Source: Accumulibacter sp. (GTDB taxonomy: Bacteria; Pseudomonadota; Gammaproteobacteria; Burkholderiales; Rhodocyclaceae). From it: a stretch of 57,312 nt of DNA. The position numbers and the translations under genes are program-made. Shown in pieces: positions 23,223 to 45,142 of the stretch (within the stretch, counting starts at the first letter, position 1; every line of letters begins with the position of its first letter). Where the stretch lies: positions 5,286-62,597 of the forward strand of contig NZ_JAMTDV010000131.1 in the NCBI RefSeq assembly GCF_023806565.1. The letters run 5' to 3'. The notes under the pieces are model-generated. The model searched no databases and was not told the DNA's origin. It saw nothing but the letters and a program-made list of their open reading frames with translations.

Positions 23223-24011
23223 ATGCTGACCGATACCCATTGCCACCTCGCCGCGGCCGAATTTGCGGCGGATCGCGGCGAACTGGTGGCGGCGGCGCGA
23301 GCAGCCGGGGTATCGCGTATCGTCGTTCCGGCCGTCGAGCGGGCGAACTTCGCCGAAGTGCGTGACTGTTGCACGCGCTACGCCGGATGCGCGCCGGCGT
23401 ACGGGATCCACCCGCTCTGCGTGGCGCAGGCGGACGAAACGCAGCTCGCCGATCTGCGTGACTGGATCGCACAATCTGCGGCCGGGCCGCAACGGGTGGT
23501 GGCAGTGGGGGAGATCGGCCTCGACTTTTTCATTGCCGAGCCGGATGTCGAACGGCAGGAGCACTTTTTCGTCGAACAACTGAAAATTGCGCGCGATGCA
23601 CAGTTGCCGGTGCTGCTGCACGTCCGCCGCGCGGTCGATCGGGTGCTCAGGAATCTGCGCCGGATCCGGGTACCGGGTGGCATCGCGCACGCCTTCAACG
23701 GCAGTCGCCAGCAGGCCGACGAGTTCATCGGGCTGGGTTTCAAGCTCGGCTTCGGCGGTTCGCTGACCTTTCGCGGATCACGGCGGATCCGCGAGCTGGC
23801 GGCTGCCCTGCCGCTGGCTTCGATCGTGCTCGAAACGGACGCTCCGGACATGCCGCCGGCCTGGCTGGGCGGCAGCCGGAACACACCCGCGCAGTTGTCG
23901 GGGATCGCCAGAATGCTCGCCGAGTTGCGCGGAATCGATGTGGCCGATCTGGCGATGGCGACGTCGGTCAATGCCGGGGTGGTGCTCCCTCGGTTGCGTT
24001 CGCTCGATTGA
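23223..24011 (+). CDS. TatD family metal-dependent hydrolase
   Basis: This 262-residue TIM-barrel hydrolase starts MLTDTHCHL, giving the first metal-binding HxH pair. VGEIGLDFF holds the bridging glutamate, LLHVRRAVDRVL the next His, and LETDAPDMPP the catalytic Asp. Members act as metal-dependent nucleases (3'-5' DNase activity in TatD). The closest subtype may be YjjV-like, but I do not assign it. It lies 99 bases after dadA. Confidence 0.85.
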   Translation: MLTDTHCHLAAAEFAADRGELVAAARAAGVSRIVVPAVERANFAEVRDCCTRYAGCAPAYGIHPLCVAQADETQLADLRDWIAQSAAGPQRVVAVGEIGLDFFIAEPDVERQEHFFVEQLKIARDAQLPVLLHVRRAVDRVLRNLRRIRVPGGIAHAFNGSRQQADEFIGLGFKLGFGGSLTFRGSRRIRELAAALPLASIVLETDAPDMPPAWLGGSRNTPAQLSGIARMLAELRGIDVADLAMATSVNAGVVLPRLRSLD

Positions 24012-24149
24012 TCGGTTAGGGTACGGCCTGACGGCCCCGGGCCAGCCACTCTGTGCAGCGTGGTCGGGCGACGGGCCAGCACAAGAATAATCCGTGGCCA
24101 GGCTCACCAATATTCGAAAGGCATCGTGCCGAAGGTCGGCGCCCTCCCC

Positions 24150-24911
24150 ATGAAAAATCGCTTCGAACCCCCCGTTGCCGCCTGCGTCGCGGTCAAGAAG
24201 GCGCTGCCGAGCGTTCCCCACTATCTGCAGGCGCATTACTGGTGGGCCTATGTTCATCCGCGAGCGGTGCATGTCTTCGAACGGCAGTGGCTCGTCAATC
24301 TGATTCTCTGGGGAAACTACAAGCGCCTGTGCAACGCGGTGCTGCAAGCGTATGGCAACCATCTGCCCGGGCGTACGCTGCAGATCGCCTGTGCCTATGG
24401 CGATCTGACGCCGCGCCTGGCCGCCTGTGTGGCTCCGGGGGGAGCACTGGAAATCATCGATATCCTCCCGATCCAGCTGGAGAATCTCGCTGGCAAACTG
24501 GCTGCCGCCGCCCCGATCAAGCTGCACTGCATGGATTCCGCGGCGCTGACGTTTGCCGACGCGAGTTTCGACCGGGCCTTGCTGTTTTTTCTCCTGCACG
24601 AACAGCCGCAGGCAGTACGTGAAAGGACGTTGGCGGAAGCGTTTCGGGTGGTCCGCCCCGGCGGTACGCTGACCATCGTCGATTATGCGCCGCCGAGCCG
24701 CTTCAACCCGTTGCGCTATTTCTGGACGCCGGTTCTCGATCGGCTCGAACCATTTGCCCGTGACCTTTTCAGTGAGGAAATCGCCGCCTGGTTGCCGAAG
24801 GACCGGAATTTCTCCCGGGTCGACGAGCAGCGCTTCTTTGGTGGCATGTATCAGATGTTGACGCTCAAGGTTGCCGAAGCACGACCGATCGGCAAGCCGG
24901 CGAGTCGATAA
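24150..24911 (+). CDS. rquA: RquA-type rhodoquinone biosynthesis protein
   Basis: This 253-residue protein has the overall fold of class I SAM methyltransferases but carries the signature of RquA, which converts ubiquinone to rhodoquinone. Visible hallmarks are SVPHYLQAHYWWAYVHPRAV, FERQWLVNLILWGNYKRL, DILPIQLENL and LLFFLLHEQP, which match my recollection of Rhodospirillum rubrum RquA. The canonical glycine-rich SAM motif (E/DxGxGxG) is replaced by IACAYGD, as expected for RquA. ATG 24150 gives the usual length; a GTG at 24060 is an alternative. It lies 85 bases upstream of frdA on the same strand, pointing to a shared anaerobic role. Confidence rests on motif recall, not a search. Confidence 0.83.
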   Translation: MKNRFEPPVAACVAVKKALPSVPHYLQAHYWWAYVHPRAVHVFERQWLVNLILWGNYKRLCNAVLQAYGNHLPGRTLQIACAYGDLTPRLAACVAPGGALEIIDILPIQLENLAGKLAAAAPIKLHCMDSAALTFADASFDRALLFFLLHEQPQAVRERTLAEAFRVVRPGGTLTIVDYAPPSRFNPLRYFWTPVLDRLEPFARDLFSEEIAAWLPKDRNFSRVDEQRFFGGMYQMLTLKVAEARPIGKPASR

Positions 24912-24996
24912 TCGGCTGGCCCTGCCGGAATTTTCTGCCAGGGCTTCTCGGACGTTGGTCGTGCCGGGGGATTCCCGGTGCGAGAAAGGATGAAGC

Positions 24997-26784
24997 ATGG
25001 AGACATACAAGGCAGACGTGGTGATCGTCGGTGGTGGCGGGGCAGGCCTGCGGGCGGCAATTGCCGTCGCCGAGTCCGATCCCACGCTGAAGATCGCCCT
25101 GGTCTCGAAGGTCTATCCGATGCGCAGTCACACCGTTGCCGCCGAAGGCGGATCGGCGGGGGTCAAACAGCAGACGGACAGCCTCGAGTACCATTTCAAC
25201 GATACGGTGGGTGGTGGCGACTGGTTGTGCGAGCAGGACGTGGTCGAGTACTTCGTGGCGCACTGCACCGAAGAGCTGACCCAGCTCGAGCACTGGGGTT
25301 GCCCCTGGAGCCGTACTCCCGACGGACACGTCAACGTGCGTGCCTTCGGCGGCATGAAGATCGAGCGCACCTGGTTCGCGGCCGACAAGACCGGCTTCCA
25401 CATGCTGCACACGCTGTTTCAGACATCGATCAAGTATCCGGCGATCAAGCGCTTCGACGAGCATTTCTGCGTTGACCTGGTGGTCGAGGACGGACGGGTG
25501 CAGGGTGTCGTCGCGATCGAGATCGCGACCGGCGAATTCACGCTGGTCGAAGCGCGGTCGGTGATCATCGCCACCGGTGGTGCCGGCCGGGTATTCCGCG
25601 AGAATACCAACGGTGGCGTGGTGACCGGTGACGGCATGGCGCTGGCGTACCGCCACGGTGTGCCGCTGCGTGACATGGAGTTCGTCCAGTATCACCCGAC
25701 CTGCATGCCCGGAACCGGATTGCTGTTTACCGAAGCATGCCGTGGCGAAGGCGGATTCCTGGTCAACAAGGATGGGTATCGTTATCTGCAGGATTATGGT
25801 CTTGGTCCGGCCGAGCCCCTGCCACGCAACAAGTTCATGGAGCTCGGACCGCGCGACCGCCTCAGTCAGGCGTTCTGGTACGAGCAGCAGAAGGGCCGCA
25901 CGATCGAAGGGCCGCACGGTTCGGTGGTGCATCTCGACCTGCGCCACCTCGGTGAGGCGAAACTGCGCGAGCGCCTGCCGCAGATCTACGAACTGGCCGA
26001 ACAGTTTCTCGGGGTCGATCCGGCGCGTACGCCGATCCCGGTGCGTCCGGCAGTGCATTACACGATGGGCGGAATTCTCGTCGACGGCCGCTGCGCGTCG
26101 CCGCTGCCGGGCCTGTATGCGGCGGGCGAGTGTTCGAGCGTAGGCATCCATGGTGCCAACCGGCTCGGTTCGAATTCGCTTTCCGAACTCTGCGTGTTTG
26201 GCAAGGTGGCGGGAGTCGAAGCCGCGCGCTTCGCAAAGTCGGCGGGACCAGGCAATTCGACGAGCCTGCAGAAACAGGCGCGGGCCGTCGAGCAAAGAGT
26301 CATGGCCCTCAAGCAGAAGACCGGTGGCAACGAACGCATCGCGACGCTGCGCAAGGAAATGGCGCAGACCATGGAGGACGGCTGCGGCATCTACCGCCTC
26401 GCCGAAACCATGCAGAAGACCTGCGACAAGCTTGACGAACTCAAGGCGCGCTTCAAGAACGTCAATGTCGAGGACAAGTCGAGCGTATGGAATACCGAGT
26501 GGCTGCTGGCGATCGAACTCGAATACCAACTCGACGTCGCGCAGACGATGGCCTACTCGGCGCTGCACCGGCGCGAGTCGCGCGGCGCGCACCAGCGGCT
26601 CGACGGTTTCGAGCAGCGTGACGATGTCAACTTCCTGAAGCACTCGCAGGCGCACTATGTCGCTGACGGCGCTCCGCGCATCGACTACGGCCCTGTCAAG
26701 ATCACCAAGTCGCAGCCCGGCACTCGCGCCTATGGCGCTGCGGGCGAAAAGGCGGAGCAGGAAAGGAAGGCGTCCCATGGCTGA
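24997..26784 (+). CDS. frdA: fumarate reductase flavoprotein subunit FrdA
   Basis: This 595-residue catalytic subunit reduces fumarate to succinate with covalently bound FAD. The FAD motif [14 protein letters not shown] starts near residue 8 and the FAD-linking histidine is H45 in [11 protein letters not shown]. Substrate-site motifs [21 protein letters not shown] (around residues 230-250) and [11 protein letters not shown] are intact. It is assigned to FrdA rather than SdhA because the operon encodes E. coli-type FrdC and FrdD anchors. GAAAGGA precedes the start. frdB overlaps its last 8 bases. rquA lies just upstream. Confidence 0.93.
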
Positions 26785-27526
26785 AAAGACGATCGAAATC
26801 GAAGTTCTGCGCTACCACCCGGAGAAGGACAGGGAGCCGCACCGACAGGTCTTCGAAGTGCCGTTCACCGATGACATGTCGGTCCTGCAAGGAGTGCAGT
26901 ACATCAAGGATTACCTCGACGGCTCGCTGAGCTTCCGCTGGTCGTGCCGGATGGCAATCTGCGGCAGTTGTGGCATGATGATCAACGGCATTCCGAGCCT
27001 GTCCTGCCAGACATTTCTGCGCGACTATTATCCGGCCAGGGTGCGGGTCGAGGCGCTGTCGCATTTCCCGATCGAGCGCGACCTGGTGATCAGCATGGAT
27101 GGCTTCATTGAGAAGCTGGAGAGCATTCAGCCGTACATCATTCCGAAGGAGCCTCGCACGCTGGAGCAGGGCGAGTACCTGCAGACGCCGGAGCAGCTCG
27201 ACGCCTACGAGCAGTTCAGTTCGTGCATCAACTGCCTGCTGTGTTACGCCGCCTGTCCGCAATTCGGCCTCAACCCGGATTTCGTCGGGCCGGCAGCGAT
27301 CGCCCTGCTGCATCGCTACAACGTCGATTCACGCGACGGCGCCAAGGCGGAACGCATGGAACTGGTCAATTCCGAGGAAGGCGTATTCAACTGCACGGCG
27401 GTGGGCTACTGTTCGGAAGTCTGTCCGAAGCACGTCGACCCGGCCAACGCGGTCAATCAGAACAAGACCAACAGTGCGGCCGACTACTTTCTGCGATTTC
27501 TCGCTCCGAAGGGAGGTGCCAAGTGA
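26777..27526 (+). CDS. frdB: fumarate reductase iron-sulfur subunit FrdB
   Basis: This 249-residue electron-transfer subunit carries three Fe-S clusters. The [2Fe-2S] ligands are in [12 protein letters not shown] and a later SCQTF. The [4Fe-4S] motif is [12 protein letters not shown] and the [3Fe-4S] ligands include [13 protein letters not shown]. It connects the flavin of FrdA with the quinol site at the membrane. ATG 26777 overlaps the frdA end by 8 bases. The stop overlaps the frdC GTG start. Confidence 0.94.
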
Positions 27527-27921
27527 GCAAGCGTCGTCCCTATGTTCGCTCGATGGACGGTTGGTGGCGGAAGAATCCCTATTTCGTCGAGTACATGATT
27601 CACGAGGGAACAGCCCTCTTCGTCGCCGCTTACGCCGGCATTCTGCTGACCGGGCTGTTGCGCCTGGCGCAGGGTGAAGCTGCCTGGAATGCCTGGCTGA
27701 GCGCGCTGCAGAATCCGTGGTACATCTGCTTTCATCTGCTGGCCCTGGCCGCGCTGACTTACCACACCTACACGTGGTTCAAGATCATGCCGCGCACGAT
27801 GCCACCGGTGATTGTCGGTGGTCAGCGTCTCTCGGCCTGGGCGATCACCGGCAGCGGTCTGGCGGTGGCCACCGCTGCCTGTTTCGGCCTGCTTGCTGTG
27901 GTATGGGGGATGGCACGATGA
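27523..27921 (+). CDS. frdC: fumarate reductase membrane anchor FrdC
   Basis: This 132-residue integral membrane subunit has three hydrophobic segments. The start KRRPYVRSM and the segment [15 protein letters not shown] align with E. coli FrdC, including the glutamate implicated in quinol binding. It is of the heme-free two-anchor type. The start is GTG 27523, overlapping the frdB stop (GTGA), with GGGAGG at 27511-27516. With FrdD it forms the quinol site; given rquA upstream, rhodoquinol is the likely donor. Confidence 0.92.
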
Positions 27922-28286
27922 AACAAGAGCGCAAACGTTCCAATGCACCGATCTTCTGGGCGCTGTTCGGCGCTGGCGGCATGCTCTCGGCGCTGTTCGG
28001 GCCGATGCTGGTGTTCATCACCGGCCTTGCGGTTCCGCTCGGACTGCTGCTGCCGGCCGACACCATGAGCTACCCGCACATGCTCGCTTTCGCCCGGAAC
28101 TGGCTCGGCAAGGGCTTCATTTTCGCGATCATCGCGTTGTTTCTCTGGCACGCAGCGCACCGCATCTTCCACAGCTTGCACGATATTGGCATTCATGCCG
28201 GGACGGGCGCGAAGCTGATCTGCTACGGGCTGGCGATGCTGGGAACGGTACTCGCTGCCTACGCGCTGCTGGCCATCGGTTTCTAG
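27918..28286 (+). CDS. frdD: fumarate reductase membrane anchor FrdD
   Basis: This 122-residue integral membrane subunit has three hydrophobic segments. The N-terminal APIFWALFGAGGMLSALFGP and the HRIFHSLHDIGIH segment match E. coli FrdD. It completes the quinol:fumarate reductase complex. ATG 27918 overlaps the frdC stop by 4 bases. The gene converges on ycgR, with a hairpin between the two. Confidence 0.93.
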   Translation: MKQERKRSNAPIFWALFGAGGMLSALFGPMLVFITGLAVPLGLLLPADTMSYPHMLAFARNWLGKGFIFAIIALFLWHAAHRIFHSLHDIGIHAGTGAKLICYGLAMLGTVLAAYALLAIGF

Positions 28287-28354
28287 GCGGGCGGAGGCTG
28301 TGCGGCCGCTGCATACTGCAGCAGCGACCACGAACAATGCGACGAGAAAGCGAT

Positions 28355-28383
28355 CTGCCGGCGGCCGAAGCTGTCGCCGGCAG
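28355..28383. terminator. hairpin between convergent frdD and ycgR
   Basis: CTGCCGGCG (28355-28363) pairs with CGCCGGCAG (28375-28383) around an 11-base loop. It sits directly before the ycgR stop (28386) and 70 bases after the frdD stop. There is no T-run on either side. It may limit read-through between the convergent genes. Confidence 0.4.
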
Positions 28384-28385
28384 CG

Positions 28386-29186
28386 CTACAAGCCGCTCAA
28401 GCGCGCCTTGCGCTCGCGCTCGACGCGGGTGATGTAGCGTTGCACCATGCTCATCCTGGTTCCGGGTAGCGCGATGAATTGGCAACCGACACGAACGTAG
28501 TGGGCTCCCGCGCGGGTCGTCACTTCCTGCTTGTTGCGAACGCACAGATTGGCGACCAGCAACCCTTCGTCGGGAAGCGCCATCTTGCAGTCGGTGATGA
28601 CCGATCCGCGCTCGAGCAGGGCCGCCAGGCCGGGCGTTGCCATCAGGCCGACACCGCCGCCGCTGATGTCGAGCAAGGACGCCTCGATCAGCAGCGCGCT
28701 GCCGTCCTTGCGCCGGAACGTGGCGACGAACCGGACCGGTTTCGTAAGCGGAGTCGTCAGGCGGAAATACTCGCGGCGCTGCAGTCGCAGCAGCGTTTCG
28801 GGCAGCGCCGCGCGGAACGCGGGAAGTCCTGCGTACTGCGTCTCGGCGAGTTTGCTCACGGTGAATTGCACCTTGACCTTGTCGACGGTCGCGCTGAGCA
28901 GCAGTCGCTCGGCGAGCAGTGCCTGGTGGTTGGTCTCTTCCTCGCGTCCGGAATCCAGAAGAATCTCATTGTTTTCGCTGTCAACCCGGAGCAGCGAAGT
29001 GAGCAGGAAAGAGCGGCCATGGTTGAAATAGACGCCGACCAGCGCCCGGCGCTCGACCAGGGTGCGCAGCACCGCGGCAATCTCGCTTCTTGCGTGCAAC
29101 AGATATTGACCGTAGTCCTTGGGCTGCTCGATTTCGAAGCGGGTCGGCGCCTGCTCTGGGGATGGCGCAAGGTCCGTGTCTTCCAT
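28386..29186 (-). CDS. ycgR: PilZ-domain flagellar brake protein (YcgR-like)
   Basis: This 266-residue protein has an N-terminal YcgR-type domain and a C-terminal PilZ domain. The c-di-GMP-binding motifs RxxxR (in RREYFRL) and DxSxxG (DISGGGVG) are intact. YcgR slows the flagellar motor when c-di-GMP is high. I chose ATG 29186, with AGGA just upstream; an ATG at 29201 would add 5 residues. It follows flhX by 55 bases on the same strand and belongs to the flagellar region. Confidence 0.88.
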   Translation of the reverse strand: MEDTDLAPSPEQAPTRFEIEQPKDYGQYLLHARSEIAAVLRTLVERRALVGVYFNHGRSFLLTSLLRVDSENNEILLDSGREEETNHQALLAERLLLSATVDKVKVQFTVSKLAETQYAGLPAFRAALPETLLRLQRREYFRLTTPLTKPVRFVATFRRKDGSALLIEASLLDISGGGVGLMATPGLAALLERGSVITDCKMALPDEGLLVANLCVRNKQEVTTRAGAHYVRVGCQFIALPGTRMSMVQRYITRVERERKARLSGL

Positions 29187-29241
29187 TGGTTTTCCTGGCA
29201 TCGGCTGGAGCGGCGAGTGTAAAGCAAAACCGGCCGCGCGG

Positions 29242-41400: not shown

Positions 41401-41450
41401 GCGTCGTCGGCGTTGGTCGCCGGCACTGCGTCATTGCGCAACTGCGGCAT
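38421..41450 (-). CDS. TPR-containing OGT-like (GT41) O-linked glycosyltransferase
   Basis: This 1009-residue protein has about 11 tandem 34-residue tetratricopeptide repeats (roughly residues 205-579; DNA 39714-40838) after a looser N-terminal TPR pair. The C-terminal GT41 catalytic domain has HVGFVSGDLCNHSVANF, GSFNRPTKISPSVVALW and DTFPYTGGTTAYHALWMG, which align in my reading with eukaryotic O-GlcNAc transferase motifs. It should transfer a sugar from a nucleotide donor to Ser/Thr of cytoplasmic proteins. Overlap with fliK (20 bases) makes flagellin or another flagellar protein the likely acceptor. ATG 41450 is chosen; 41492 is also in frame. Confidence 0.88.
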   Translation of the reverse strand: MPQLRNDAVPATNADDAAAEETLAEILARALAKALACTAAGQSGEAEQLYRAIVQARPDHPEANHQLALLAWQGQRPAESLRHFVAALEASPETRQYWLSYVEALHLSGETNTAREVLALGRQHGLAGDDLEALARRVEDSAPQVTHDSATAAVTSNHVRSGNRSSGGGGKPSAREERRLLELFRSGRFREGEKLARALSGRLPSHGFGWKVLGTMLQAQGRNAEALHPLRQAAALLPDDEQVHSNLGLALASVGELHEAEAAQRHAVQARPDFAEAHYNLGNVLCAQGRTQEAEASYRHAVAAQPNFALAHCNLGNTLLSQGRLEEAEVSYQTALALRPELVEAHNNLGDTLRQLGRLREAESAFRRALACRPDFAAAHYNLGNTLSDQGRLDAAEAAWRCALQCQAEFPEALAVLGSALREQGRLDEAESALREALRCRPDFVEAHFHLGAVLRDRNRLAEAVDEWRRALDRRPQFPEALTALGSALKDLGQLQEGEDSLRRALEYRPDFAEAHYNLANNLRQQGRLVEAEAGFRRALAIQPELASALLNLGVTLYELGRYCEAEEACRNALAVNADYPLAHSNLLFWLTHKDTIDPQELFAEHLRFGERFETPLRAVWARHANSRDPERRLHVGFVSGDLCNHSVANFIEPILAQLKGHPRLALHAYSNQAVEDQVTQRLRSYFDHWQRVSGIADPALAEGIRADSIDILIDLSGHTAHHRLLTFARKPAPIQASWIGYPGTTGLQAMDYFVADPYFLPVGEFDDQFTEQIVRLPACAPFLPFVGAPAVGALPALRRNHVTFGSFNRPTKISPSVVALWSKLLTAVPDSRMLVGAMLPDGRIEQLIDAFAANGVTRDRLSFHMRGDMNGYLEQHQQVDICLDTFPYTGGTTAYHALWMGVPTLTLAGRTVPGRPGAAILGQVGLQDFIAHDAAEFVARGVALASDPALLARIRSEARERLRQSAMGQPELIANSLERALRIMWQRWCDDLPPAAFTVGARDLAESR

Positions 41451-42570
41451 CCGTCGGGTCCGGCCGTGGCGGGGCAACGCCCAGCGACGCAAGGTCGAGT
41501 CCTGCCTCGGCGAACTGGCTGCGCAGGGCGGCAGCGTCGCTGTGCAGCAGTGCGCGCGTTTCGGAATTGGCGGCGATCATGGCCAGCGTGATCCGCGTCC
41601 CCTGAAGGTACAGACGCGCGTCGACCGCGCCGAGATTGGGAAGCGTCAGGCGCAACCGCGTCTGCCACTTCTCGCCTTCGCCGGATTCGCCGTCCGGCGG
41701 TCGTTCACCGCGATTCTCGATCTCCCAGGCGAGTTGCTGTCCCGGCCAGATCTGCCCATGCCAGGAGTAATTCTGCGTGGCGAAAGCCTCGAGTTGCTGC
41801 TGCACGATCGTCTCCGCCTGTGCTGCGACGGGCTGGCCGGACTGTGCCGCGGGAGCAGCGGGTAGTGGACTGCCGCCAGCGTCGGCGGCCTTGCTCCGCG
41901 CCTGCGCGCTGTCGGCTCCGCTGATTTCGTTGCCGCCGCCGGCGCCAGCCGTTGGCGAGACTACCTGCTCGCTGGCCGCCTGCAGGCCCAGCCGGGCTTG
42001 CGGTTCGTGCAGGAGTTGTTCCTTGCTGTAGCGGCCTTCGACCCATTCCGCCTGGTGCGACTCGTAAAACATGCCGCTTTCGACGATCGCCTGCCGGAGC
42101 AGGGGCAGCAGGTCGCGAGCCAGTTTGGGAGGTTCGCTGGCGATCGGCTGGTTGCCGTTCAGCGGCAGCGCAGCAGCACGTTCCTGCCGGGCGCGCTGGT
42201 TGCCGAGCAGCGTGCTGATCAGTTGCCCGGTGTCGCTCAGGCTGGCCGCGGTCGATCGCGCAGCACTGTTGCTGCTCTCCGTTCCGCTCTGCGAAACGAT
42301 CGCCAGCGCCAGTTTGCCGTCACTGTCGGTAACCTCCAGTTCGATCGCGTCGCCGCTCTTGGCGGTGAAGGGAAGGGCGAGTGTGACGCTGCGCTGGTTG
42401 ATCAGCGCGCGGTAGGTGCCGTTCGGCAGGAGTGCCTGAATTTCCGCCAGCAGTCGCTGCCCGCTGACCAGTTCACCCAGCTTGTCGGCAATCTCCTGCA
42501 GCGGCGGCAGCGGCCGCAGGGCGAGGTCGCCGCCCGTTTGCAGGCGGTTGCTTATGTCGCTCAGGATCAT
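41431..42570 (-). CDS. fliK: flagellar hook-length control protein FliK-like
   Basis: This 379-residue protein has a low-complexity Gln/Ala-rich middle and a conserved C-terminal domain with WQTRLRLTLPNLGAVDARLYLQG and LRSQFAEAGLDLASLGV, the FliK C-terminal fold that binds FlhB and triggers substrate switching. It follows fliT after 104 bases and is overlapped by the glycosyltransferase start. The N-terminal part lacks recognised domains, as is usual for the family. Confidence 0.78.
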   Translation of the reverse strand: MILSDISNRLQTGGDLALRPLPPLQEIADKLGELVSGQRLLAEIQALLPNGTYRALINQRSVTLALPFTAKSGDAIELEVTDSDGKLALAIVSQSGTESSNSAARSTAASLSDTGQLISTLLGNQRARQERAAALPLNGNQPIASEPPKLARDLLPLLRQAIVESGMFYESHQAEWVEGRYSKEQLLHEPQARLGLQAASEQVVSPTAGAGGGNEISGADSAQARSKAADAGGSPLPAAPAAQSGQPVAAQAETIVQQQLEAFATQNYSWHGQIWPGQQLAWEIENRGERPPDGESGEGEKWQTRLRLTLPNLGAVDARLYLQGTRITLAMIAANSETRALLHSDAAALRSQFAEAGLDLASLGVAPPRPDPTDAAVAQ

Positions 42571-42674
42571 CGGTTCAGAGCTGGTGGGTCAATCTGCGGT
42601 CCGCCTGGGCTGCTGGTTTGCTCACCCACTCACTCGCGCTCCGCTGGCACCGTGGCCTGCCCGCAACGTTTTCG

Positions 42675-42974
42675 TCACGAGATGTCGGACGGCGGTGGGG
42701 CGGCGCGCAGCACGACACGCAGTTCGTCGAGTCGCGCATGCACCAGCGGCAGGAGGTCGTGATGATGGCGCAGATAGCGTTCGATCAGGGCTTGCGCGCG
42801 CGTTGATGTCGCCCCGGACAAGTCGTTCGCCAGACTGGCTGGTAGACTGTTGGCCAGGGTCTGGCGTCGGGCTTCGAGGCTCGCCAGCTTCTCCCACTCG
42901 CCCAATCCGGCAGCGCCGAGCATGGTTTCCGCAAGCGCGGCCAGTTGTTCGAGGGTGTCCAGCACGACCGTCAT
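42675..42974 (-). CDS. fliT: flagellar chaperone FliT-like
   Basis: This 99-residue helical protein overlaps the fliS stop by 4 bases. In many flagellar operons this position holds FliT, the chaperone for FliD. Residues such as LEQLAALAETMLGAAGLGEWEKL and HDLLPLVHARLDEL fit a short alpha-helical protein. FliT is poorly conserved, so the assignment rests on position, length and helical character. ATG 42974 is chosen; an ATG at 43016 would overlap fliS more. Confidence 0.62.
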   Translation of the reverse strand: MTVVLDTLEQLAALAETMLGAAGLGEWEKLASLEARRQTLANSLPASLANDLSGATSTRAQALIERYLRHHHDLLPLVHARLDELRVVLRAAPPPSDIS

Positions 42975-43384
42975 GCGACCGCCTGCCGCGGCACGTTGGG
43001 CGAGATTTCGCGCCACGCACCATGGATCTCTTCGAGCAGTCCCGCTACTTCTTCGAGAGCTCCCAGGTCGTTGTCGAGGTTGGCGCGCAGCAGGCGCAGG
43101 ACCAGATAATCATAGAGCGCGTCGAGGCGTTCGGCGATCTCGCCGCCCTTCTCCAGGTCGAGGCTGACCTTGAGGCCATTGCCGATGATGTCGATGGCCT
43201 TGGAAATGGCTTCACCCTTGGCGGCAATCTGTTGCTGCTGCATGGCGGCACGGGCATTGCCGATGGCCGCCTGAGCGCCGGAGAAAAGCAGGAGAACCAG
43301 GCGATACGGGTCGGCAACCTCGACGGCTGCATCGATGCCCACTTTCCGATACGCTGAAATCGCGCTGCGTGCATTGCCGAACAT
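42971..43384 (-). CDS. fliS: flagellin export chaperone FliS
   Basis: This 137-residue helical chaperone binds the disordered C terminus of flagellin. The N-terminal AYRKVGIDAAVEVADPYRLVLLLFSGA matches the FliS core, and the four-helix pattern continues with YDYLVLRLLRANLDND. It lies between fliD (9 bases) and fliT (4-base overlap), the standard order. Confidence 0.92.
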   Translation of the reverse strand: MFGNARSAISAYRKVGIDAAVEVADPYRLVLLLFSGAQAAIGNARAAMQQQQIAAKGEAISKAIDIIGNGLKVSLDLEKGGEIAERLDALYDYLVLRLLRANLDNDLGALEEVAGLLEEIHGAWREISPNVPRQAVA

Positions 43385-43393
43385 GGAGGGCTC

Positions 43394-45142
43394 CTAGTTG
43401 TTGGATGTGTTGAACTTGGGCAGGTTGGCGAGCTGCTGCGTGAGGAAGGTACTGGTCTTGGTCATTCCGGAAATCAGCACGTCGAGCGCAGTGAATTGCT
43501 TGCGGTAGCGCGCCTCGATCTGCGTGAGCTGTTGCGAAACGGCTGCCGACTGCTTCGTGATGTCGTTGATCGACGAATTGAGCCCCTGCGTACGCGAAGG
43601 GATCAATCCCGTGCTACCGACCAGACTGTCGGCAGCGCTCTTGAATGCCTTGCCGTATGCGGCCAGCAGGTTGGCTACGCCAGTGGCGTCGCCGGCGATG
43701 GCGGTGACGAGCCTGTTCGAATCGACGGTCAGCGAGCCGTTCTTCTGCAAACTGACGCCAATGTCCGACAGATTCTTCCAGGTGGCGCCGGAGAGCTCGC
43801 TGGGGACGTGGCTGAGAACGCTGCGGAAGCTTTTCTCGGCCGCGAGCAAGGTGCCGTCACCGTTGAGCGCGCCCGCCTTCTGCGTCGTCGCATCGTAGCT
43901 GCCGAGATTGGCGGCAGTGCTGTGGTAGTCGTTGAACGCCTTGACCAGCGAATTTACCTGCGCGCTCAGGCCCGAGGTGTCCTTGGTGATCGTCAGCGTG
44001 GTGTTGACCGAGCTTGCCGGCGCTTCGGGGCCTTTCAGCAGGTTGAGCGTGACGCCATCGATTGCCGTCGTCACCGTGTTGGTTTCGGCGGTCACGGCGA
44101 TGTCATTGAGCGTGAAGGCCGAACCCTGCGCCGCCTGCGTCTGGGTGAAGGTGTCGACCGGTGTGCTGTCGGTGTAGAACGGGGCCGAGATTGCCCCAGA
44201 CAGCCTGACGAACTGGTTGTCACCGGGTGCGCTGGCGGTGACGACGAGTTGCTTGCCGTCGCCGCCGTCGATCACCTGTGCAGAGACGCCGGCGCCGGCA
44301 TGGTTGATCTGATCCCGGATCGTCTCGGGGGTGGCACCGGCAGCGACGGTGAGGTCGGTGGATTGGCTGGTGCTGCCGCCATCGGCGCTGCCCAGCGCAA
44401 TGGTCAGCGTTCCCCCGAGCGGCAACGTGCCACCATCCCCGGAAAACGGTGAACCGGGTCCACTCGCGGTAGTGATGCTGTGCAGCTTGGCCGCGGGAAG
44501 CGCATAGCTCAGACCAGCGACTCCCGACAGTTTGATGAACTGGTTGCTGCCGGCGGTGTCGCCGGTGAGAATCAACTGCTTGCCGGCGCTGCCATTGATC
44601 ACCAGCGCCGAGACTCCTGCGTCGGCGTTGTTGATCGCGTCGCGCACGGCGTCTGGCGAAGCGCCATCGGCAATCGTGACCGTGGTTGTCTTGCTGAGCG
44701 TGAGGCCGTCGGCGCTGCCCAGCGCGATGGTCAGCGCGCCGCCTTTCGGCAGCGTGCCGCCGCTTCCGGTAAACGGGGAGGCTCCGCCACCGCTGGTTCG
44801 GATGACGTGCTGTTTGGCCAGCTGGGTTACGGAAAGACTGTAGGTGCCGGCCACTGCACTCGAGCTCACGCTTGCCGTGGCGACCGTCGAGTCGCTCAGT
44901 GCGCTCCGGAGCACCGCGAATTTCTGTATGGCGGTCGTTCCGGCAGCCGGCACCAGATTGCCGGCGACCGTCTGCAATCCCGAGATTGCTCCCTGCAACG
45001 AGCCAAGCGCGGAGATTTTGGCCTGGAAACCTGCCTGCTTCTTGGCCAGCAGGTTCAGCGGTGCCTGTTCGACGGTCATCAGCTGGCTGACGATACTGTT
45101 GACGTCGAGGTTCGAGCCCAGGCCTGGTGAGGAAATGGTCAT
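43394..45142 (-). CDS. fliD: flagellar filament cap protein FliD
   Basis: This 582-residue protein forms the cap under which flagellin polymerises. The N terminus (SSPGLGSNLDVNSIVSQLM) and C-terminal coiled-coil (QQLTQIEARYRKQFTALD) match FliD. Between them lie two tandem copies of a flagellin hook-IN type module of about 88 residues (residues about 121-207 and 230-318; see finding). An intact C terminus suggests a working cap. It lies 39 bases after flaG. Confidence 0.93.
   Translation of the reverse strand: MTISSPGLGSNLDVNSIVSQLMTVEQAPLNLLAKKQAGFQAKISALGSLQGAISGLQTVAGNLVPAAGTTAIQKFAVLRSALSDSTVATASVSSSAVAGTYSLSVTQLAKQHVIRTSGGGASPFTGSGGTLPKGGALTIALGSADGLTLSKTTTVTIADGASPDAVRDAINNADAGVSALVINGSAGKQLILTGDTAGSNQFIKLSGVAGLSYALPAAKLHSITTASGPGSPFSGDGGTLPLGGTLTIALGSADGGSTSQSTDLTVAAGATPETIRDQINHAGAGVSAQVIDGGDGKQLVVTASAPGDNQFVRLSGAISAPFYTDSTPVDTFTQTQAAQGSAFTLNDIAVTAETNTVTTAIDGVTLNLLKGPEAPASSVNTTLTITKDTSGLSAQVNSLVKAFNDYHSTAANLGSYDATTQKAGALNGDGTLLAAEKSFRSVLSHVPSELSGATWKNLSDIGVSLQKNGSLTVDSNRLVTAIAGDATGVANLLAAYGKAFKSAADSLVGSTGLIPSRTQGLNSSINDITKQSAAVSQQLTQIEARYRKQFTALDVLISGMTKTSTFLTQQLANLPKFNTSNN

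Follow-up and report, generated by a model that had tools for sequence, protein, structure and literature searches.

A predicted rhodoquinone–fumarate reductase gene pair conserved in Candidatus Accumulibacter

Accumulibacter is a polyphosphate-accumulating wastewater bacterium, and we report here on a stretch of 57,312 nt from one of its genomes (the window, to whose full length all positions refer) in which rquA, a gene for rhodoquinone biosynthesis, stands directly before a complete frdABCD operon for an Escherichia coli-type fumarate reductase. Judged by its genes, this locus very probably constitutes a rhodoquinone–fumarate reductase pair, in which RquA would make rhodoquinone and FrdABCD would reduce fumarate with the resulting rhodoquinol. 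The source genome (G000) comprises 3.7 Mb in 139 contigs and is 99.85% complete. Within the window, the genes in question are arranged as follows.

24150..24911, plus strand: rquA, rhodoquinone biosynthesis protein of 253 residues, ATG start at 24150, predicted to convert ubiquinone to rhodoquinone (NF038261 equivalog)
24912..24996, plus strand: rquA-frdA spacer of 85 bases, carrying the ribosome-binding-like stretch GAGAAAGGA
24997..26784, plus strand: frdA, fumarate reductase flavoprotein subunit, 595 residues, ATG start (NF006686)
26777..27526, plus strand: frdB, iron-sulfur subunit, 249 residues (NF009051)
27523..27921, plus strand: frdC, membrane anchor, 132 residues, GTG start (PF02300)
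27918..28286, plus strand: frdD, membrane anchor, 122 residues (NF003977)

These coordinates agree with a first-pass annotation of the same DNA, which had placed rquA 85 bases before frdA and described frdABCD as complete, with overlapping genes; the overlaps are 8 bases for frdA/frdB and 4 bases each for frdB/frdC and frdC/frdD. The start of rquA at 24150 fits its relatives, the match beginning at residue 1 in 18/18 Accumulibacter loci, and the GAGAAAGGA stretch precedes frdA in 17 of 18 aligned rows (the window plus 17 relatives). The rquA gene is under purifying selection, with a ratio of nonsynonymous to synonymous substitution rates of 0.08 to 0.13 in 6/6 pairs, the corresponding values for frdA being 0.035 to 0.08 (Nei-Gojobori script).

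The mechanism that we propose starts with RquA, which would yield rhodoquinone by putting an amino group in place of a methoxy group on ubiquinone. The potential of rhodoquinone is about -63 mV and that of ubiquinone about +100 mV, with the fumarate/succinate couple lying at about +30 mV. The forward reaction is unfavourable with ubiquinone alone, which makes the choice of carrier matter; what a fumarate reductase needs is a low-potential quinol. Under exclusion of oxygen, rhodoquinol would be formed by NADH dehydrogenase or other dehydrogenases. FrdABCD, a heme-less enzyme of the E. coli type, would then oxidise it at a site located between FrdB, FrdC and FrdD and turn fumarate into succinate. 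In this way, the reductive branch of the tricarboxylic acid cycle of Accumulibacter, which runs towards propionyl-CoA and storage polymers, would gain a quinol of suitable potential. It is from the genes described below that we infer rhodoquinone production, its use by the fumarate reductase here, the direction of flux and a role as an anaerobic electron sink.

The identity of RquA is carried by its family score, by trees and by conserved residues. The protein reaches 285.3 bits against NF038261 (cut-off 175) as compared to at most 36.2 bits against the NCBI UbiE models, and the three motifs on which the first-pass assignment to RquA had been built (IACAYGD, WWAYVHPRAV and DILPIQLENL) are all present in the 253-residue sequence. 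In trees of 100, 118 and 161 rows, the window protein falls inside RquA, and the RquA rows are split from E. coli UbiE and four sub-threshold methyltransferases of the genus with 100% support in the SH-like approximate likelihood ratio test (SH-aLRT), so that the phylogeny once suggested as a check puts the protein with RquA and apart from UbiE. The altered residues of its S-adenosylmethionine (SAM) motif I, that is, Q78, A80, Y83 and G84, are invariant in 118/118 aligned RquA rows, while D104 is found in 118/118 and D129 in 108/118. The RquA of Rhodospirillum rubrum converts ubiquinone to rhodoquinone with SAM as the amino donor and a need for Mn2+, and joint replacement of its D118 and D143 abolishes activity (PMC9814641). 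Going by equal spacing rather than direct alignment, D104 and D129 are likely the counterparts of these two aspartates.

An AlphaFold model of RquA based on a 17-row alignment (pLDDT 86.9) shows a class I methyltransferase fold. Foldseek returned a phosphatidylethanolamine methyltransferase as the nearest structure, with yeast Coq5 (4obw) among the matches, and a sequence search of the PDB gave general methyltransferases only. This same fold, along with a Pfam ubiE/COQ5 match of 42.6 bits, is what one would cite for the alternative of a UbiE/COQ5-type methyltransferase, or some other SAM enzyme, in place of RquA. However, the gap between its RquA and UbiE scores, the trees and the invariance of the altered motif I across 118 rows all argue against this already disfavoured possibility, which we regard as scarcely credible.

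The first-pass description of an E. coli-type frdABCD likewise held up, as the four subunits lie in one cluster whose two small anchors belong to the FrdC family and the FrdD family. FrdA scores 1071 bits against NF006686 (cut-off 854), FrdB 427 bits against NF009051 (cut-off 333), and FrdD 154.8 bits against NF003977 (cut-off 60) and 152 bits against Pfam FrdD (cut-off 25). FrdC matches Pfam PF02300 with 145.7 bits (cut-off 24.2) and stays under the NCBI FrdC equivalog cut-off (96.9 versus 143 bits); we therefore call it a divergent family member and do not rank it as equivalog to the E. coli protein. In searches with FrdA, FrdC and FrdD, the closest solved structure was E. coli 1kf6, at 883 bits for FrdA, 77.5 bits for FrdC (1kf6_C) and 106 bits for FrdD (1kf6_D). 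For the quinol site, we used the site residues of the E. coli enzyme, numbered as in its mature protein. In the site alignment, FrdC keeps Glu29, His82 and Trp86, with His replacing Arg28; FrdD keeps Trp14, His80 and Arg81; and FrdB keeps Thr205 and Lys228, with changes of Phe206 to Ala and Gln225 to Asn that are both shared more widely. The core of the quinol site is thus kept, including Glu29, the proton shuttle of the E. coli enzyme (PMC5907181).

Turning to conservation, the rquA-frd pair is a trait of the genus, unbroken wherever contigs allow a check. The organism had been called Accumulibacter-like at first, which fits the finding that, when the 80 top-ranking relatives were kept out of a total of at least 543, 18 of them came from Candidatus Accumulibacter, at 79 to 86% identity, alongside 62 others; the order rquA-frdA is seen in all 18 of these named loci. 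Among 28 Accumulibacter genomes, the window's own included, 26 have RquA and 26 have FrdC over the respective cut-off. Both are found in 25 genomes, and in 24 of these the two genes share a contig and a strand at a distance of about 3.3 kb. In the 25th, G018, they are on two contigs, with that of rquA ending about 2 kb downstream. As for other genomes, the contig of G004 stops about 1 kb beyond FrdC in the direction in which rquA is expected, and that of G003 ends inside frdA (locus L074), while G016, which is 72% complete, has neither gene. In the A. phosphatis SBR_S genome (G008; locus L092, 5008-8637), the RquA match is split over two frames and the tatD and frdA matches are shortened, which suggests a sequencing error in that assembly.

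The rquA and frd genes of Accumulibacter have separate histories. In a tree of FrdB, FrdC and FrdD (84 rows, with the Arg28 column left out), Accumulibacter frd nests with relatives from its family, which we take to be Rhodocyclaceae, with a support of 100/98. In a 161-row RquA tree that includes all 73 other family rows, by contrast, a branch with 98% SH-aLRT support unites 26 Accumulibacter rows with 26 rows from other taxa and 0/73 of the other family rows. While this tree was made by a quick method with SH-aLRT support only and contains long branches, a careful 100-row tree with 25 family rows agrees on the separation (support 100/95), and the wider set around Accumulibacter RquA in it contains many alphaproteobacterial rows. 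Rows with a stop near the end (19/117) were dropped from the 100-row tree, and cut there and kept in the 118- and 161-row trees. Among the 43 family RquA rows added, 39 share 32 to 40% identity with the window protein and four share 50 to 55%. Forcing all family RquA rows into one clade was rejected by the approximately unbiased test (p-AU 0.0004), but since this test included just the 30 best-scoring of the 73 other family rows, which do not form one clade among themselves, and was set up after earlier trees, the claim of separation rests on the branch in the 161-row tree and not on this test. Because RquA groups with other taxa while frd is family-like, the likeliest history is that the stem lineage of Accumulibacter acquired rquA by lateral transfer and that the gene came to stand before an frd operon already resident there; replacement of an older rquA is a possible alternative to plain gain. 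We infer the direction and timing of this transfer from the tree topologies.

Which quinone, then, is available to the enzyme? In the window's own genome, MenD does not reach the cut-off (a related enzyme scores 81.6 versus 244 bits), a search for MenA gives no match at 1e-10, and MqnA/D are not found either. The sole low-potential quinone that we predict for it is therefore rhodoquinone. Genus-wide, MenD is over the cut-off in 12/28 genomes (fragments in G009 and G013), MenA in 16/28 and MqnA/D in 0/28; 11 genomes, including the window's own, have neither MenD nor MenA over the cut-off, and six have one only. Of those with neither, 10/11 carry rquA and FrdC, the exception being the incomplete G016, and so do 10/11 genomes with both MenA and MenD carry rquA (G004 is cut by the contig end). 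Menaquinone genes are therefore patchy in the genus, whereas the rquA-frd pair is constant.

Several observations nevertheless weigh against the proposed pairing, beginning with genomes outside the genus. In a family sample of 249 genomes, rquA was found in 82 at E 1e-30 (81 over the cut-off) and FrdC in 57; the 240 genomes outside the genus account for 73 with rquA (one of them, G248, partial and sub-cut-off), 48 with FrdC and 22 with both. In 0/22 of the latter did tblastn reveal FrdA to FrdD within 6 kb of rquA or up to the contig end. The two lie more than 300 kb apart on one contig in 7/22 and on different contigs in 15/22. For 14 of these 15, the distances to the contig ends imply a separation of 5.8 kb or more; in G237, where both genes lie near contig ends, this lower limit is just 1.6 kb, so that linkage is possible there. 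Since none of these family genomes shows frd close to rquA, linkage is not needed for function. Moreover, FrdC is lacking in 51/73 rquA genomes outside the genus, and rhodoquinone must therefore serve other enzymes too. As to co-occurrence outside the genus, rquA and FrdC are associated with an odds ratio of 2.3 (p 0.014) and rquA and MenD, found together in four genomes, with an odds ratio of 0.24 (p 0.004); both values ignore kinship and are descriptive only.

Further points against the pairing concern the genus itself and the chemistry. MenD and MenA are both over the cut-off in 11/28 genus genomes, which could feed the fumarate reductase with menaquinol. E. coli with an rquA taken from a Desulfobacterota genome produced no rhodoquinone (PMC13386864), so that sequence alone is no proof of RquA activity. 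UbiA, searched at E 1e-20, was found in 26/28 genus genomes and not in the window's own or in G025, both of which are highly complete; as ubiquinone is the substrate of RquA, this bears on the supply of both ubiquinone and rhodoquinone. A gap in the assembly is likelier than a loss of ubiA, because UbiA and MenA are both unfound there and yet the genome must have some quinone. UbiU is present at 56 to 60% identity in 27/28 genus genomes (G002 partial; G015 has only a 32% paralog), the protein of the window's own genome being 58% identical to that of E. coli. Finally, no FNR-like box (TTGAT-N4-ATCAA, up to two mismatches) was found before rquA or in the rquA-frdA gap, neither in the window nor in 17 relatives, and FNR control of rquA-frd was dropped as a candidate on these grounds. 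The first-pass proposal of a complete anaerobic fumarate respiration module thus stands in part: the last step to rhodoquinone and the terminal reductase are encoded, but ubiquinone has to come from elsewhere, with ubiU found and ubiA not, and the search for an FNR box found none.

In light of these points, the fumarate reductase might use ubiquinol or, like that of E. coli, menaquinol, with rquA serving other enzymes and its adjacency being incidental. The genomes with MenD and MenA, the menaquinone pathway reported earlier for A. phosphatis (PMC3914697) and the many rquA genomes without FrdC are in keeping with this explanation. Against it speak the genomes that have rquA and FrdC and neither MenD nor MenA over the cut-off, along with the count of 0/28 for MqnA/D. 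Nor does it sit well with an adjacency that is unbroken in the genus wherever contigs can show it and that recurs elsewhere: of the 62 other loci, 15 (a lower bound given that some loci end early) likewise have frdC and frdD next to rquA. They follow one of three layouts, with rquA before frdA (four loci), behind frdD on the same strand (five) or with frd on the opposite strand (six). On the RquA tree, the label linked versus not seen linked requires 11 changes. Overall, we consider this explanation unlikely and favor the rhodoquinone–fumarate reductase pair.

The survey also turned up other constellations. In G056 (locus L245, 6830-9480), SdhAB/FrdAB-like genes with 28 to 36% identity to FrdA/FrdB adjoin rquA, and by their sequence would represent a complex II of another kind than the E. 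coli type. A metagenome-assembled genome (MAG) titled Bordetella parapertussis (L107), probably a mislabel, has an rquA which falls among those of betaproteobacterial MAGs, with frd about 3 kb away. Nineteen family genomes possess frdABCD of a separate clade and showed no match to rquA or MenD, the two that were searched for there.

The most conspicuous change in the quinol site is that at FrdC position 28, which is His in the window, in 19/19 other Accumulibacter rows and in 21/22 genomes with unlinked rquA (L074, at a contig end and without FrdC, gives no row). Arg is found in 5/5 MenD-only genomes and 19/21 genomes with neither rquA nor MenD, and the 15 other rquA-linked operons have Arg (10), Met (three) or His (two). 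All 45 His28 rows fall into one 48-row clade of the frd tree, the other three rows being MenD-only with Arg, so that one origin of the change suffices and there is only one independent pair; two His28 rows, G061 and G180, lack an rquA match. We rejected Arg28His as proof of rhodoquinol use, given Arg in 10/15 linked operons and the single clade. Rather, His28 appears to be the mark of a clade of mostly rquA-bearing genomes, a lead and not statistical proof. A tentative extension, possible but rather doubtful, is that the FrdABCD of this clade is adapted to rhodoquinol, with Arg28His, perhaps together with Phe206Ala and Gln225Asn of FrdB, retuning a menaquinol site and the laterally acquired rquA completing an anaerobic electron sink. 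If true, rhodoquinone supply would limit the formation of propionyl-CoA and polymers in phosphorus-removal plants.

We also considered that the enzyme might chiefly work in reverse and serve, with either ubiquinone or rhodoquinone, as a second succinate dehydrogenase. SdhC/D-type cytochromes are over the cut-off in 25/28 genus genomes, including the window's own, which means that a separate enzyme is there to oxidise succinate; none was over the cut-off in G021 (90% complete), G027 (93%) and G016 (72%), and G021 and G027 may have no complex II besides the fumarate reductase. Similarly, Ca. Accumulibacter symbioticus is reported to have lost succinate dehydrogenase and to rely on fumarate reductase (PMC13310139). 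While such genomes would suit the reverse reaction, the general presence of the cytochromes, the scores of FrdA over fumarate reductase equivalog cut-offs and the fact that rhodoquinone favours the reductive direction make it highly unlikely as the main mode.

As for expression, rquA and frd would presumably be read as one message. A promoter and terminator scan of the locus gave signals at chance level only: five hairpins in 23900-28500 compare with a mean of 3.9 in shuffles, and a weak terminator-like hairpin in the rquA-frdA spacer (24912-24928) is not above chance. The locus is flanked by the following genes.

23223-24011, plus strand: TatD-family DNase gene, upstream of rquA on the same strand
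28386-29201, opposite strand to frd: YcgR-like PilZ gene, downstream of frdD

In the named Accumulibacter loci, some of which end early, TatD lies upstream in 18/18 and the YcgR-like gene downstream in 15/18. Besides the latter gene, the window carries FliK- and FliD-like flagellar genes on the minus strand (41431-45142, Pfam). The genus is usually described as non-motile.

What do these results add to the literature? It is already published that bacterial rquA often lies within 15 genes of those for respiratory complex I, II or III, with an operon suggested, that Rhodocyclales are among the bearers of rquA and that the gene has been transferred laterally (Stairs et al. 2018, PMC5953543). The linkage of rquA to complex II is therefore known in general, and the novelty is modest. 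In the open-access literature, with subscription papers and supplements outside the scope, we found no paper joining rhodoquinone or rquA to Accumulibacter in the passages seen; a 2025 transcript study discusses frd, and its main text contains no word with "quinone" or "quinol" (PMC12604563). Rhodoquinone, encoded directly before frd, is thus a concrete and cheaply testable candidate carrier for the fumarate reductase of Accumulibacter and, going by the gene content, most likely the carrier used by its anaerobic electron sink.

A survey of quinones in Pseudomonadota found that rquA spread both laterally and vertically, that rhodoquinone usually goes with an oxygen-independent ubiquinone route and that rhodoquinone together with menaquinone is rare (5/84 genomes), and asked whether gain of a low-potential quinone came with gain of fumarate reductase (PMC11707229). 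Accumulibacter looks like the reverse case, with a resident reductase to which rquA was brought.

Set beside known systems, the window enzyme resembles E. coli FrdABCD (PDB 1kf6, 1l0v) in its four subunits, gene order and quinol-site core residues; it differs in FrdC R28H, FrdB F206A and Q225N, the sub-cut-off FrdC and the different low-potential quinone predicted for it. RquA shares with the R. rubrum protein and the NF038261 family the family score, the altered SAM motif I, the SAM-pocket aspartates (by spacing) and the class I methyltransferase fold, while the position of its gene directly before frdA sets it apart. With the Pseudomonadota survey (PMC11707229), we see the same mix of lateral and vertical descent of rquA, but unlike the rarity of joint rhodoquinone and menaquinone there, nearly all Accumulibacter genomes with MenA and MenD have rquA. 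With the text of Stairs et al. (PMC5953543), our findings share the proximity of rquA to complex II genes and its lateral transfer; what goes beyond that text, whose supplementary tables may list Accumulibacter, is the constancy of the pair in this genus, the separate history of frd, the patchy menaquinone genes and the change at FrdC Arg28.

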